Positions 41,456 to 45,645 of a DNA stretch of 64,000 nucleotides are shown one piece after another. The position numbers were made by a program, and so were the translations under genes. Each line of letters begins with the position of its first letter. Within the stretch, counting starts at the first letter, position 1. This stretch comes from Paracoccaceae bacterium (GTDB taxonomy: Bacteria; Pseudomonadota; Alphaproteobacteria; Rhizobiales; Stappiaceae). The DNA is taken from positions 62,001-126,000 of the forward strand of contig PARB01000057.1 of assembly GCA_002709505.1 (NCBI GenBank), given 5' to 3'. Under the pieces are notes generated by a model that saw only the letters and a list, made by a program, of their open reading frames with translations, did no database searches and was not told the origin of the DNA.

Positions 41456-42649
41456 ATGACGCAGCGTGAAGTCGTTCTCGTTTCGGGTGTGCGCACGGCA
41501 ATTGGCAGCTTCGGAGGATCGCTGAAGAGCGTGCCGCCGACGGAGTTGGGGGCGAAGGTGGCCGCCGAGGCGATCCGGCGCTCGCGCGTGGCCGCAACCG
41601 ACATTGGCCATGTGGTGTTCGGCCATGTGATCAACACCGAACCCCGCGACATGTATCTTGCGCGCGTTGCCGCCGTGGAGGCGGGCATTCCGGTCGAGAC
41701 GCCGGCGCTGACCGTGAACCGCCTGTGCGGCTCGGGCGCGCAGGCCATCGTCTCGGCCGCTCAGTCGATCCTCCTCGGCGATACCGATTACGCGCTCGCC
41801 GGTGGCGCGGAATCGATGAGCCGCGCCCCCTACGCCTCGTCGGGCGCGCGCTTCGGCGTGAAGATGGGCGATGCCGCCTTGCACGACATGATGCTCGGCG
41901 CGCTGAACGATCCCTTCGGCGGTGGGCACATGGGCGTGACCGCGGAAAATGTCGCCGAACGCTACACCATCAGCCGCGAGGCGCAGGATGCGCTGGCCGT
42001 CGACAGCCAGAACCGTGCGGGCATTGCCATTCGCGACGGCCGCTTCGTCGACCAGATCCTGCCGATCGAGGTCCGCGCCGGTCGCGAGACCGTGACCTTC
42101 GATACCGACGAACATCCGCGCCCGGACACCTCGCCCTCGACGCTGAGCGGCCTGCGGGCCGTGTTCCGCAAGGACGGCTCGGTGACGGCCGGCAATTCCT
42201 CCGGGATCAACGACGGCGCGGCGGCCGTCGTTCTGGCCGAACGGTCGACGGCCGAGGCGCGCGGCCTGACGCCGATGGCGCGGCTGATCGGCTATGCCCA
42301 TGCCGGCGTTTCGCCGGATGTCATGGGCATCGGTCCGGTTCCGGCGGTGCAGAAACTGTTTGAAAAGACCGGAATGACGGCGGCGGATTTCGACGTGATC
42401 GAATCCAACGAGGCCTTCGCGGCGCAGGCCTGCGCGGTGATGCGCGAACTGGGCCTGCCCTCCAATCGGGTCAACCCGAACGGCGGCGCCATCGCGCTCG
42501 GTCACCCGGTCGGCGCCACGGGCTGTATCCTTGCCGTCAAGGCGATGTACGAGCTGGAGCGCACCGGCGGGCGCTATGCGCTGGTGACCATGTGCATCGG
42601 CGGCGGGCAGGGCATTGCGCTGGCGCTGGAGAACCTCAGCGCGGCGTGA
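41456..42649 (+). CDS. Acetyl-CoA acetyltransferase / beta-ketothiolase
   Basis: The 397-residue thiolase has the acyl-accepting Cys91 in NRLCGSGAQA, the catalytic histidine in NPNGGAIALGHPVGATG and the C-terminal CIGGGQGIA cysteine. Such enzymes condense or cleave acetyl-CoA/acetoacetyl-CoA or 3-ketovaleryl-CoA (PhaA/BktB types). No phaB or phaC is adjacent. AGAGGG lies before the ATG. It stands alone between a terminator and the convergent radical SAM gene. Confidence 0.93.
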   Translation: MTQREVVLVSGVRTAIGSFGGSLKSVPPTELGAKVAAEAIRRSRVAATDIGHVVFGHVINTEPRDMYLARVAAVEAGIPVETPALTVNRLCGSGAQAIVSAAQSILLGDTDYALAGGAESMSRAPYASSGARFGVKMGDAALHDMMLGALNDPFGGGHMGVTAENVAERYTISREAQDALAVDSQNRAGIAIRDGRFVDQILPIEVRAGRETVTFDTDEHPRPDTSPSTLSGLRAVFRKDGSVTAGNSSGINDGAAAVVLAERSTAEARGLTPMARLIGYAHAGVSPDVMGIGPVPAVQKLFEKTGMTAADFDVIESNEAFAAQACAVMRELGLPSNRVNPNGGAIALGHPVGATGCILAVKAMYELERTGGRYALVTMCIGGGQGIALALENLSAA

Positions 42650-42731: not shown

Positions 42732-43913
42732 TCAGGCCGCCCCTTCAAGCCGGGTCTCGAAGATCTCCCGCGGGTAGCCGTTGGCGACGAGCAGATCCCG
42801 GACACGGGCGTAGAACACCTGATAGCCCTCGCAATAGGCGGACGGATTGTTGAACCCGCCGTTTCGGGAAAACCGGTTCTCGACATCCCCTCCGCGGCAC
42901 AGGCGCGCCCATTCGCAGCCGTTGCATCCGCTCGGCAGGCTGTGCAGACCGGCTTCGCTCTCAAGGCTGCGCACAAGGGTCAGGTGATCCCGCAGCGGAG
43001 TGTCGTCGACAGACGTCTGCGGCAGGTCGCGGTACCAGGGCAGTGCGGGAATATAGGAATCATTCAGCGCGATGCTGCCGTCGCTCTGGACGACGACGAT
43101 CTGCACATTTTCGCTGCGCATCGGGCCGCCCAGACGAAACCGAGCCAGGGCGCGCTCGATCTGGCGCACGAACACCGAGGCATCGTCTTCCTTGAGCCAG
43201 GCTTCGAAGACATCGGCGAGTTGCCGCCCGTAGGCCGCCGCGGTTTCGCCGTCGCCGGCAAATCCGTCGTCGCGAGAGCGGTCGGGAAGCAGGAAACTCA
43301 TCTCGCGCACCCCCATTGCGCGGAAGCTGCGGTAGATCTCGGCCAGGTCGTTGCGCCAGTCCAGCACCGAGATCGTCGAGGGGCCAAGCGCCCGGTCGTC
43401 GTTCGACCAGTCCACCAAGCGCTCCAGATTCCGTTTCGTCGTCTCGAAGGTCGACCGTCCGCGCTTGTCGAGGCGATGCCGGTCGTGGGCAAGCCTGTCG
43501 CCGTCGATGCTGACGCCGACGTGGACGCGGTGCCGCGAAAACGCCTCGAGCCACGCAGGCGAAAGGATGGTTCCATTCGTCTGGATCGCGAAACCGAGAG
43601 ACGCCTTCGGCTCTATCGCCGCGCGCAGCGACGCGCAGATGCGATCGAAGGCACGCGGCTTCAGAAGCATCGGCTCGCCGCCGTGAAAGGACAGCAGGAC
43701 CTTCCTGATCCCGAGATCGTCGCAGCCTTGCGTGATCCACTGGCCGACCGCCTCGGCACGGTCCTGATCGACAACCGGCGGGCGGGCGAGGGCGCGCGTG
43801 TCCCCCATGTTGAAATAATAGCAATAGTCGCAGTCGATGTTGCAGCGTTCGGCGACCTTGAACACCACCTGCAACGTATCGGGGGGTGCTTCATCCGCGG
43901 TGCGAGGTGACAT
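42732..43913 (-). CDS. Radical SAM/SPASM peptide maturase (probable cyclophane-forming)
   Basis: The 393-residue enzyme has the radical SAM cluster motif C24-x3-C28-x2-C31 in ERCNIDCDYCYYF, the GGEPM motif near residue 80, and a C-terminal SPASM-like set C330-x2-C333-x5-C339-x21-C361 (GCNGCEWARLCRGGD) for an auxiliary Fe-S cluster. This architecture is shared by anaerobic sulfatase maturases and by RiPP maturases such as XyeB, GrrM/OscB and FxsB. No sulfatase is nearby. A 76-residue gene with repeated Y-x-Q and F-x-D motifs lies 155 bases upstream on the same strand, so a peptide-modifying role is favoured. GGAGG precedes the ATG. Confidence 0.85.
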   Translation of the reverse strand: MSPRTADEAPPDTLQVVFKVAERCNIDCDYCYYFNMGDTRALARPPVVDQDRAEAVGQWITQGCDDLGIRKVLLSFHGGEPMLLKPRAFDRICASLRAAIEPKASLGFAIQTNGTILSPAWLEAFSRHRVHVGVSIDGDRLAHDRHRLDKRGRSTFETTKRNLERLVDWSNDDRALGPSTISVLDWRNDLAEIYRSFRAMGVREMSFLLPDRSRDDGFAGDGETAAAYGRQLADVFEAWLKEDDASVFVRQIERALARFRLGGPMRSENVQIVVVQSDGSIALNDSYIPALPWYRDLPQTSVDDTPLRDHLTLVRSLESEAGLHSLPSGCNGCEWARLCRGGDVENRFSRNGGFNNPSAYCEGYQVFYARVRDLLVANGYPREIFETRLEGAA

Positions 43914-44068
43914 CTTGACCTCCGGGAACGGGCTGTGCGGTCACGGCCCCGCGGCACGTCGGGCCTCCCTCCGGATGCCCGGAGCAGGAGCAAACGGTCG
44001 CAGGGCCGTGAGGCGTTTTTCGCGTCCGAGCAGGGCGCGCGGGTAGGGCCGGCGGCAAGCGCCCGCTG

Positions 44069-44299
44069 TCAGGGGCTTTGGTTGTAGGCGCCGCTGCCCT
44101 GATCGTGGAACCCGCCGGTCTGCGTGTAGTCCCCGTTGGTCTGTCCGTAGTAGCCGTCGCCGTTGGTCCGCACGACGCCGACCGGCGACAGCAGGCCGTC
44201 GATAATACCCTGACCAATGACCCTGCGCAGGTCTTCTTCGCGTTTCAGCCTGTCCGTCAGCCTTTTGTCCGGGGTTTTTCCGTCGGGGGCTTTGGCCAT
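44069..44299 (-). CDS. Probable RiPP precursor peptide with aromatic-x-Gln/Asp repeats
   Basis: The 76-residue peptide has a charged, helix-prone leader (DKRLTDRLKREEDLRRVIGQ, residues 11-30), a conserved-looking GLLSPVG hinge, then a Gly/Asn/Gln-rich core (46-76) in which aromatics recur: Y51-G-Q53, Y58-T-Q60, F64-H-D66 and Y72-N-Q74, each spaced 6-8 residues and flanked by Gly-Asp or Gly-Gly. Three-residue aromatic-x-polar motifs are the sites that radical SAM cyclophane synthases crosslink. AGGGAGA precedes the ATG at 44299; a start at 44356 would add 19 residues without a better site. It is probably cotranscribed with the maturase at 42732-43913. Product and activity unknown. Confidence 0.75.
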   Translation of the reverse strand: MAKAPDGKTPDKRLTDRLKREEDLRRVIGQGIIDGLLSPVGVVRTNGDGYYGQTNGDYTQTGGFHDQGSGAYNQSP

Positions 44300-44420
44300 A
44301 TGCTGTCTCCCTGGTTGGGGTGTCCGATCCCGCCTTCGCCGCGATGTGTCCGACACCTGTCAACGGCTCCACCGTGACCGCCAGATGCGGGCAAGCCGTG
44401 TTCGGTGAGCCGTCGCCCGC

Positions 44421-44637: not shown

Positions 44638-45645
44638 ATGTCATCTGTTTCCGGTCTCGCAGTCAGGGGCCTCGTTGCCCTCTCGGTCCTTCTTGCGGGT
44701 CTGTCCGCGCGCGCGGATGTGCCCGCCTTCACGCTGGCGCAAGGCGCGGATCATCCGCTTTCGGGCAAGGTCTGGTCGCGCGCGGAGGGGGATTTCGTAT
44801 CGGGCGACGCGGTCGGGACGGCTGTGCGCGATGCGCGCTATGTGCTTCTCGGCGAGATCCACGACAATCCGGACCACCATGCCCTCCAGGCCTATCTGCT
44901 GGGTCAGGCGGCCTCAAACGGCCGCCGCCCCGCTGTGGTGCTGGAAATGATCCCGCGCGACCGGCAGGACAGGATCGAGGCGCATTTCGCTGGAACGCCG
45001 GCGGATGCGGCCGGGTTCGGCGCGGCCGTCGGCTGGTCCGAGCTTGGCTGGCCGGACTATGCGATCTACCGGCCAATCCTTGAGACCGCCCTGGAGGCCG
45101 GGCTGAGCGTGGTTGCGGGCGATGCGCCGCGCGCGGATCGCCGCGCGCTGGCACGGGAGGGACTGGAGAGCCTTGGTACGGAGACGGTCGCGACGCTGTC
45201 GCTGGACGCCCCGCTCGGTGTGGCGGAGGATGCCAGGCTTCTCGACACGCTGTTCGACGGTCATTGCGGGCTGATGCCGCGCGCGGCGCTGGCGCCGCTG
45301 GTCACGGTCCAGCGGCTGCGCGATGCGACGCTGGCTGATGCGATGATCGCGGCAGATGGCGCAGGCGCAGACGGTGCGGTGCTGATCGCCGGGGCCGGGC
45401 ATGTGCGCGCCGATTTCGGCGTGCCACGCTATCTGGCATGGCGCGACGCGACGGCCACCGTCGTCACGGTCGGGTTCGTCGAGGTGCGCGCGGATGCGAC
45501 GCAGCCGCAGGACTATGCGGCGGTCGGCGACGGTGACGCGGCGCTTTACGACTATGTCTGGTTCACGCCCGGACGCGGGGCGGAGCGCGGCGACCCTTGC
45601 GCGGAGCTGGAAAAGCGCTTCGGCAAGAAGCGCCAGGAAAACTGA
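44638..45645 (+). CDS. ChaN-family (haem-binding uptake-like, Tiki superfamily) protein
   Basis: The 335-residue protein has a signal peptide (MSSVSGLAVRGLVALSVLLA, cleavage ARA-DV) without a lipobox cysteine, and the ChaN/EreA-like motif YVLLGEIHDNPDHHALQAYL near residue 75 with GHVRADFGVPRYL near the end. ChaN of Campylobacter binds haem; related proteins are predicted metal-dependent hydrolases. GAAAGGAA precedes the ATG at 44638; the longer frame from 44497 lacks a signal start. It diverges from the RiPP-like operon; no functional tie is evident. Confidence 0.8.
   Translation: MSSVSGLAVRGLVALSVLLAGLSARADVPAFTLAQGADHPLSGKVWSRAEGDFVSGDAVGTAVRDARYVLLGEIHDNPDHHALQAYLLGQAASNGRRPAVVLEMIPRDRQDRIEAHFAGTPADAAGFGAAVGWSELGWPDYAIYRPILETALEAGLSVVAGDAPRADRRALAREGLESLGTETVATLSLDAPLGVAEDARLLDTLFDGHCGLMPRAALAPLVTVQRLRDATLADAMIAADGAGADGAVLIAGAGHVRADFGVPRYLAWRDATATVVTVGFVEVRADATQPQDYAAVGDGDAALYDYVWFTPGRGAERGDPCAELEKRFGKKRQEN

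Follow-up and report, generated by a model that had tools for sequence, protein, structure and literature searches.

What might a bacterium make from a gene for a short, glycine-rich peptide placed directly before a gene for a radical SAM enzyme? The question is raised by a two-gene locus in the window, as we call the whole stretch of 64,000 nucleotides that was analysed; its features are collected in Table 1. Both ORFs lie on the minus strand, 155 bp apart in the ORF list with the maturase gene downstream, and the 76-residue peptide is thus encoded immediately upstream on the same strand, as the preliminary description had it. Each is preceded by a ribosome-binding site, and the pair is flanked by a beta-ketothiolase gene and, on its other side, by a gene of the ChaN family. 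Neither the ORF list nor the NCBIfam and Pfam scans reveal a dedicated protease, exporter or immunity gene next to the pair, in agreement with the earlier remark that protease and exporter genes are not adjacent. A promoter and terminator scan returned no promoter-like site (0.2 expected) and one terminator-like site (1.4 expected). Both genes are single-copy in their own genome, which is 85% complete.

By analogy with known triceptide enzymes, the pair probably constitutes a minimal triceptide-type RiPP pathway, in which the enzyme would form up to four Tyr/His-to-Gln cyclophanes. Sequence comparison establishes the gene pair itself, a conserved repeat, its co-occurrence with one clade of enzymes and a cysteine pattern of triceptide type; on this footing the pair and its repeat are real, conserved and rare. 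Of the earlier proposal, the RiPP system of two genes, the radical SAM maturase of triceptide type and the core built of several repeats are all supported.

Table 1. Features of the gene pair and of the comparison loci discussed in the text, each with the locus to which its position refers.
Feature	Locus	Position	Strand	Basis or remark
Beta-ketothiolase gene, flanking the pair	window	41456-42649	+	Pfam/NCBIfam scans
Radical SAM peptide maturase gene, 393 aa	window	42732..43913	-	ORF; NCBIfam/Pfam, tree, fold
Ribosome-binding site GGAGG of maturase	window	43919..43923	-	sequence, ahead of ATG
Precursor peptide gene, 76 aa	window	44069..44299	-	ORF; homologues at 8 further loci
Repeat 4, Tyr72-Asn73-Gln74	window	44078..44086	-	motif positions
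Repeat 3, His65-Asp66-Gln67	window	44099..44107	-	7-residue register; HTQ/HNQ aligned in four relatives, HDQ in congener
Repeat 2, Tyr58-Thr59-Gln60	window	44120..44128	-	motif positions
Repeat 1, Tyr51-Gly52-Gln53	window	44141..44149	-	motif positions
Leader, residues 1-45, including IGQGIIDGLLSP	window	44165..44299	-	IGxxI(I/L/M)xGL in 8 of 9 aligned precursors
Ribosome-binding site AGGGAGA of precursor	window	44306-44312	-	sequence, ahead of ATG
ChaN-family gene, flanking the pair on the other side	window	44638-45645	+	Pfam/NCBIfam scans
JmjC_2 oxygenase gene beside the pair	L005	6734-8383		family match
JmjC_2 oxygenase gene beside the pair	L006	7155-8087		family match
JmjC_2 oxygenase gene beside the pair	L080	4412-5608		54% identical to L005 protein; family match in G1578
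GDSGG-containing ORF upstream of precursor	L014	2922-3797		
ORF with HEVFH motif after enzyme	L014	6166-7740		
Maturase gene split over two frames	L082	3309-4476		
Biotinyl-lipoyl-like ORF, 565 aa	L009	8769-10466		between precursor and ChaN gene in G083
Two consecutive radical SAM genes, with small peptide	L007	495-4113		
Small upstream ORF with SFDLS repeats	L022	2758-2955		
Small upstream ORF with GGNFVSAPA repeats	L023	3172-3480		
ORF of 380 aa, seven MHDQ(T/N)HSE copies	L068	733-1875		

The core of the window precursor comprises the Gly-rich residues 46-76, and its motifs start at residues 51, 58, 65 and 72, an exact 7-residue spacing when the third repeat is read as HDQ. The preliminary description had listed YGQ, YTQ, FHD and YNQ under a general rule of aromatic-x-Gln/Asp. 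The first, second and fourth of these stand, while FHD and the mixed rule give way to HDQ, which fits the register, and to Tyr/His-x-Gln throughout. It is nevertheless worth asking whether the third ring could run from Phe64 to Asp66, with the remaining rings joining Tyr to Gln. Position 64, beside His65, is aromatic in the window and in its congener (Phe or Tyr), so that such a bond is possible; Asp66 is kept in both, and a triceptide enzyme, YxdB, is known to act on Tyr-x-Asp (PMC11002830). Reading FHD as the third motif breaks the exact register, however, and four relatives carry HTQ or HNQ at this place, preceded by Ser, Asn, Asn or Thr, and hence have no aromatic-x-Asp option at all. We regard the FHD ring as improbable. 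Sactipeptides and ranthipeptides were also set aside, the core cysteines needed for thioethers being absent from the window precursor; eight of the nine clade precursors have no cysteine and the ninth, L014, has two.

The repeat acquires its weight from the relatives of the pair. A scan of species genomes, which required that one of six 8-residue patterns be matched exactly, found five relatives of the maturase: L004 from Planctomycetota (52% identity to the window enzyme), L005 from Phycisphaeraceae (47%), L006 from Colwellia (45%), L007 from Legionellales (34%, outside the clade) and L008, a partial match (28%). With L009 (genome G083, a congener whose enzyme is 88% identical to that of the window), L014 (Pseudoalteromonas), L079 (G1381), L080 (G1578) and L082 (G1332), nine clade loci were examined including the window, L004, L005 and L006, and a precursor adjoins the enzyme at every one of them; the preliminary description had proposed to look for homologues of the peptide beside related maturases, and this is where they are. 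For the precursors of L004, L079, L080 and L082 the start codon was chosen by hand. The leader segment IGxxI(I/L/M)xGL is missing only from L014, the deepest member.

Each of the nine cores carries four to five Tyr/His-x-Gln repeats. Counted after residue 31, which sets aside a leader FNQ in L014, there are 39 such motifs, four of them in the window, and they use 39 of the 40 core glutamines. An aromatic residue at i with a candidate partner at i+2, in a precursor next to the enzyme, is the arrangement of triceptide systems. The aromatic residue is Tyr 32 times and His seven times, never Phe or Trp although the count allowed both, and the order Tyr-Tyr-His-Tyr recurs in six of the nine precursors. 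Neighbouring motifs are spaced 6-10 residues apart. The repeat spacing thus varies, but Gln invariably stands two residues after its Tyr or His, so the three-residue unit is the conserved element. A link of the PqqA kind, which would run from Gln to the Tyr or His of the following repeat, is disfavoured because that distance does vary.

Chance hardly accounts for such cores. When the window core was shuffled, at least four aromatic-x-Gln motifs arose in 105 of 200,000 shuffles; as many motifs as observed were reached in 78 for L009, 103 for L004, 8 for L005 and none for L006 or L014 (in the latter with nearly the whole peptide shuffled). The peptide of L007, the other sequence so treated, with FNQ and HKQ, is not above chance (26,475 of 200,000). 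The first six loci served to define the motif, and all three clade loci found later (in G1381, G1578 and G1332) have it. A fourth new genome, G1479, lies outside the clade (32% identity to L006), and its upstream peptide lacks Tyr/His-x-Gln and ends in VFGKWSRS, which is reminiscent of Xye precursors. Among 12 comparison peptides from 11 loci, repeated aromatic-x-Gln occurs in one, encoded on a Rhizobium lusitanum plasmid (L068) beside genes for a radical SAM and a HEXXH protein, in which HDQ appears seven times. A Gln partner may therefore not be wholly confined to the clade, and His-x-Gln may occur in another branch. In neighbouring branches, the small upstream ORFs of L022 and L023 carry repeats of other kinds, and with these radical SAM relatives they are possibly further triceptide systems. 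The Legionellales contig, L007, has its two consecutive radical SAM genes together with a small peptide containing FNQ, YHKQ and YNR.

In a 27-row tree the clade's eight intact enzymes group together (support 100/99), as did the six clade rows of an earlier 24-row tree (99/99). The tree gives poor resolution for the place of the clade among XyeB-like rows, and 11 of the 27 rows, two from the clade, have a letter make-up unlike the rest of the alignment. L007 is weakly placed as sister of the clade (81/72). The membership of L082 is judged by similarity; there the maturase gene is split over two frames beside an intact-looking precursor, through decay or sequencing error. Clade members come from Planctomycetota, Gammaproteobacteria and the window's own lineage. 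In genome searches, whose counts include the seed genomes, an enzyme match was found in 2 of 87 genomes of the window's own family (E 1e-40) and, at E 1e-60, in 2 of 347 of its order, 4 of 385 of its class (three with other precursors), 2 of 295 of the family of the Colwellia genome, 4 of 369 of the class of that genome (L006 as query) and 1 of 392 of the phylum of the L005 genome. Matches were also seen in 180 plasmid records (best 34% identity; 14 records examined), and 28 weak, mostly partial ones in viral contigs (20-34% identity). Rarity in the sampled genomes and a scatter across two or more phyla suggest horizontal transfer of the pair.

Comparison with congeners adds a shorter time scale. 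Between the window and G083, dN/dS is 0.086 for the precursor (0.088 in the core and 0.081 in the leader, from 8 nonsynonymous and 21 synonymous differences), 0.154 for the enzyme and 0.041 for the neighbouring thiolase; by this measure the precursor is strongly constrained. Neither enzyme nor precursor was found in G079, the closest congener, where the thiolase and ChaN genes (98% and 91% identical to those of the window) are directly adjacent. The pair is therefore dispensable there, and either mobile or easily lost. The biotinyl-lipoyl-like ORF that adjoins the precursor in G083 was set aside as a partner because a relative of it adjoins ChaN in two congeners that lack an enzyme match at E 1e-40, G085 and G082. 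These data bear on the most deflationary account of the repeats, namely that they belong to a low-complexity Gly-rich protein that has nothing to do with the enzyme. The core is indeed short and Gly-rich, and local alignment alone is weak evidence of kinship. Against this stand the presence of the same repeat beside the same enzyme clade at nine loci, the leader segment common to eight of them, the joint absence of both genes from G079 and the core dN/dS just given, which together leave the account very little probability.

What, then, is the enzyme? Pfam recognises a radical SAM domain, and the best NCBIfam model is XyeB (TIGR04496), with 234.2 bits against a cut-off of 450, followed by YhhB (NF041707; 223.8, cut-off 445) and FxsB (TIGR04269; 223.0, cut-off 370). 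The sulfatase maturase model TIGR03942 scores 158.9 bits (cut-off 349.45), AmcB (NF041718) 94.7 (cut-off 425) and GrrM/OscB (TIGR04261) 86.5 (cut-off 310); scored in its own genome, the gene again gives 94 bits with AmcB. None of these cut-offs is reached, nor is any reached by the other enzymes in a scan of seven of the clade (window, L004, L005, L006, L014, L079 and L080, leaving out L009), whereas a genuine XyeB, that of L015, scores 558.8 bits on its own model. The cysteines named in the preliminary description, C24, C28 and C31 with a C-terminal set, are invariant in seven aligned sequences including the window, the latter set consisting of C330, C333, C339 and C361. The first three would be the ligands of the SAM cluster, and the last four could hold one auxiliary cluster. 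This combination of CxxxCxxC with C-terminal auxiliary-cluster cysteines is the pattern of XyeB, YhhB, FxsB, HaaB and ChlB, all of which, like the window enzyme, lack a cysteine pair that two rows of anaerobic sulfatase-maturating enzymes (anSMEs) have ahead of the CxxC motif. By sequence, the nearest solved structure is ChlB (E 1.8e-36). The predicted model of the maturase has a mean pLDDT of 75, falling below 50 in part of the auxiliary-cluster region (residues 319-327 and 339-358), and its best match in fold comparison is again ChlB (Z 35.9, 360 residues aligned, rmsd 2.8). Sequence, cysteine pattern and fold all mark the maturase as one of the triceptide type.

The second closest solved structure is an anSME (E 1.2e-22; in fold comparison Z 31.0, 344 aligned, rmsd 3.1), and one could imagine that the enzyme matures a sulfatase and that the small ORF lies beside it by chance. 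The sulfatase maturase model scores below the cyclophane models XyeB, YhhB and FxsB, however, the cysteine pair is absent, the tree separates the two anSMEs at 100/100, and the precursor is conserved across phyla. A pairing with sulfatases, considered in the preliminary description, was sought with one arylsulfatase query (tblastn, E 1, the query's own locus being the sole positive control), and no match was found in the window or at 13 related loci. We reject the identification as a sulfatase maturase, to which we give practically no probability.

If the enzyme is a triceptide maturase, the pathway can be sketched as follows. The radical SAM enzyme would recognise the leader and, at each of the four 7-residue repeats, abstract a hydrogen from Cbeta of Gln and bond this carbon to the aromatic ring of the residue at i-2 from Gln, Tyr or His, probably at C3 of Tyr and C2 of His as in the products of YxdB and YhhB. 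The product would bear up to four cyclophanes, on Tyr, Tyr, His and Tyr along the chain, each with a loss of about 2 Da, and its later cleavage and export would fall to unlinked enzymes. Described triceptide enzymes join C3 of Tyr to Cbeta of Asp or Arg, and C2 of His to Cbeta of Arg or Ala, at i+2 (PMC11002830), and a survey of related clusters gives Aro-x-x-Asn, Tyr-Asn-Arg, His-Asn-Arg and Aro-x-Asn as candidate motifs (PMC9062424). Gln is not among the partners named in the excerpts of the former source, nor among the candidate motifs in those of the latter. As no crosslink to Gln is described there, the Gln partner is an extrapolation, and as no clade member reaches an NCBIfam cut-off, the chemistry is carried over from relatives of about 24-33% identity. 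We found no description of a Tyr/His-x-Gln triceptide in the open-access literature that was searched, an earlier entry in Sugiyama et al. (2022) or in the Chl papers being possible.

The clade could also be a group of RiPP maturases that modify the same repeats differently, through a Tyr-Gln ether, a C-N link, epimerisation or a bond to Cgamma of Gln. Related radical SAM maturases do differ in their chemistry, as ether links occur in daropeptides (PMC9055067) and TvgB makes cyclopropylglycine (PMC9062424). Yet the families closest by score, cysteine pattern and fold are formers of C-C cyclophanes, and the conserved unit is an aromatic-x-residue element as in triceptides; we consider a different modification unlikely, if less so than an FHD ring. 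Formation of Tyr/His-to-Gln cyclophanes is hence the reading retained in what follows.

Three clade loci (L005, L006 and L080) have a JmjC_2 oxygenase gene beside the pair, and tblastn found none at the window, L009, L004, L014, L079 or L082. G083, G1381 and G356 do have JmjC matches, but at genomic sites away from the pair, and there is no match in G000, G087 or G1332. Exactly the three precursors with a JmjC gene extend 24-41 residues beyond the last motif, the other six 1-6 residues. Since L005 and L080 are sisters, this co-occurrence may reflect one or two events and is suggestive only. In the Chl system an alpha-ketoglutarate enzyme acts on a preinstalled cyclophane (PMC12636437), and by this analogy we propose that the tail may guide the JmjC protein, which would hydroxylate the ringed core. 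At the Pseudoalteromonas locus, the ORFs with GDSGG and HEVFH motifs are possible leader proteases.

Taken further, the clade could be a distinct, so far undescribed triceptide class, where a single enzyme places four to five Tyr/His-to-Gln cyclophanes in a fixed order, typically Tyr, Tyr, His, Tyr, on a Gly-rich scaffold and, in a sub-branch, a tail-guided oxygenase of JmjC type hydroxylates the ringed peptide. We offer this only tentatively, as a reading less likely than not. If true, Gln would be a new ring partner and JmjC a new oxygenase type for triceptides, and a compact two-gene system that strings near-identical rings on one peptide would be useful for studies of iteration and for peptide engineering. 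Ordered Tyr-Tyr-His-Tyr cores, together with loci with and without the JmjC gene and tail, would let natural variants reveal the roles of the parts.

How does the pair relate to known systems? The preliminary description had suggested AmcA/AmcB as the first comparison. AmcB is by its NCBIfam name a cyclophane-forming maturase, but in this comparison, made by the enzyme model alone, it falls so far behind XyeB, YhhB and FxsB (223-234 bits) that it is rejected as the nearest family. XyeA/XyeB share the precursor placed directly before the enzyme and provide the best NCBIfam model, but their motifs are WVN, FAR and WDK and a genuine XyeB scores more than twice as high. Multi-repeat precursors also occur among FxsA/FxsB and HaaA/HaaB (GFSSY/GFSSH in L018), where x-Gln is replaced by FSS repeats (L018) or by an HQA close to the terminus (L066). 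YhhA/YhhB/YhhC has Tyr and His repeats with an i+2 partner (YDR, HHR, HNR), and of three Yhh loci examined one (L017) includes the oxygenase gene yhhC; its partner in the repeats is Arg rather than Gln, its leader is different and it occupies a separate part of the tree. The nearest system by sequence and fold is ChlA/ChlB (PDB 9gm3, 9gmc), whose enzyme has the same auxiliary-cluster cysteine pattern, is 24% identical to that of the window over the aligned part, and is described, in the title of its paper as cited in PMC12636437, as a multiple-cyclophane synthase, with several rings on one precursor; the Chl system is reported in PMC12636437 itself to have a HExxH domain, where three loci of the present clade have JmjC_2 genes.
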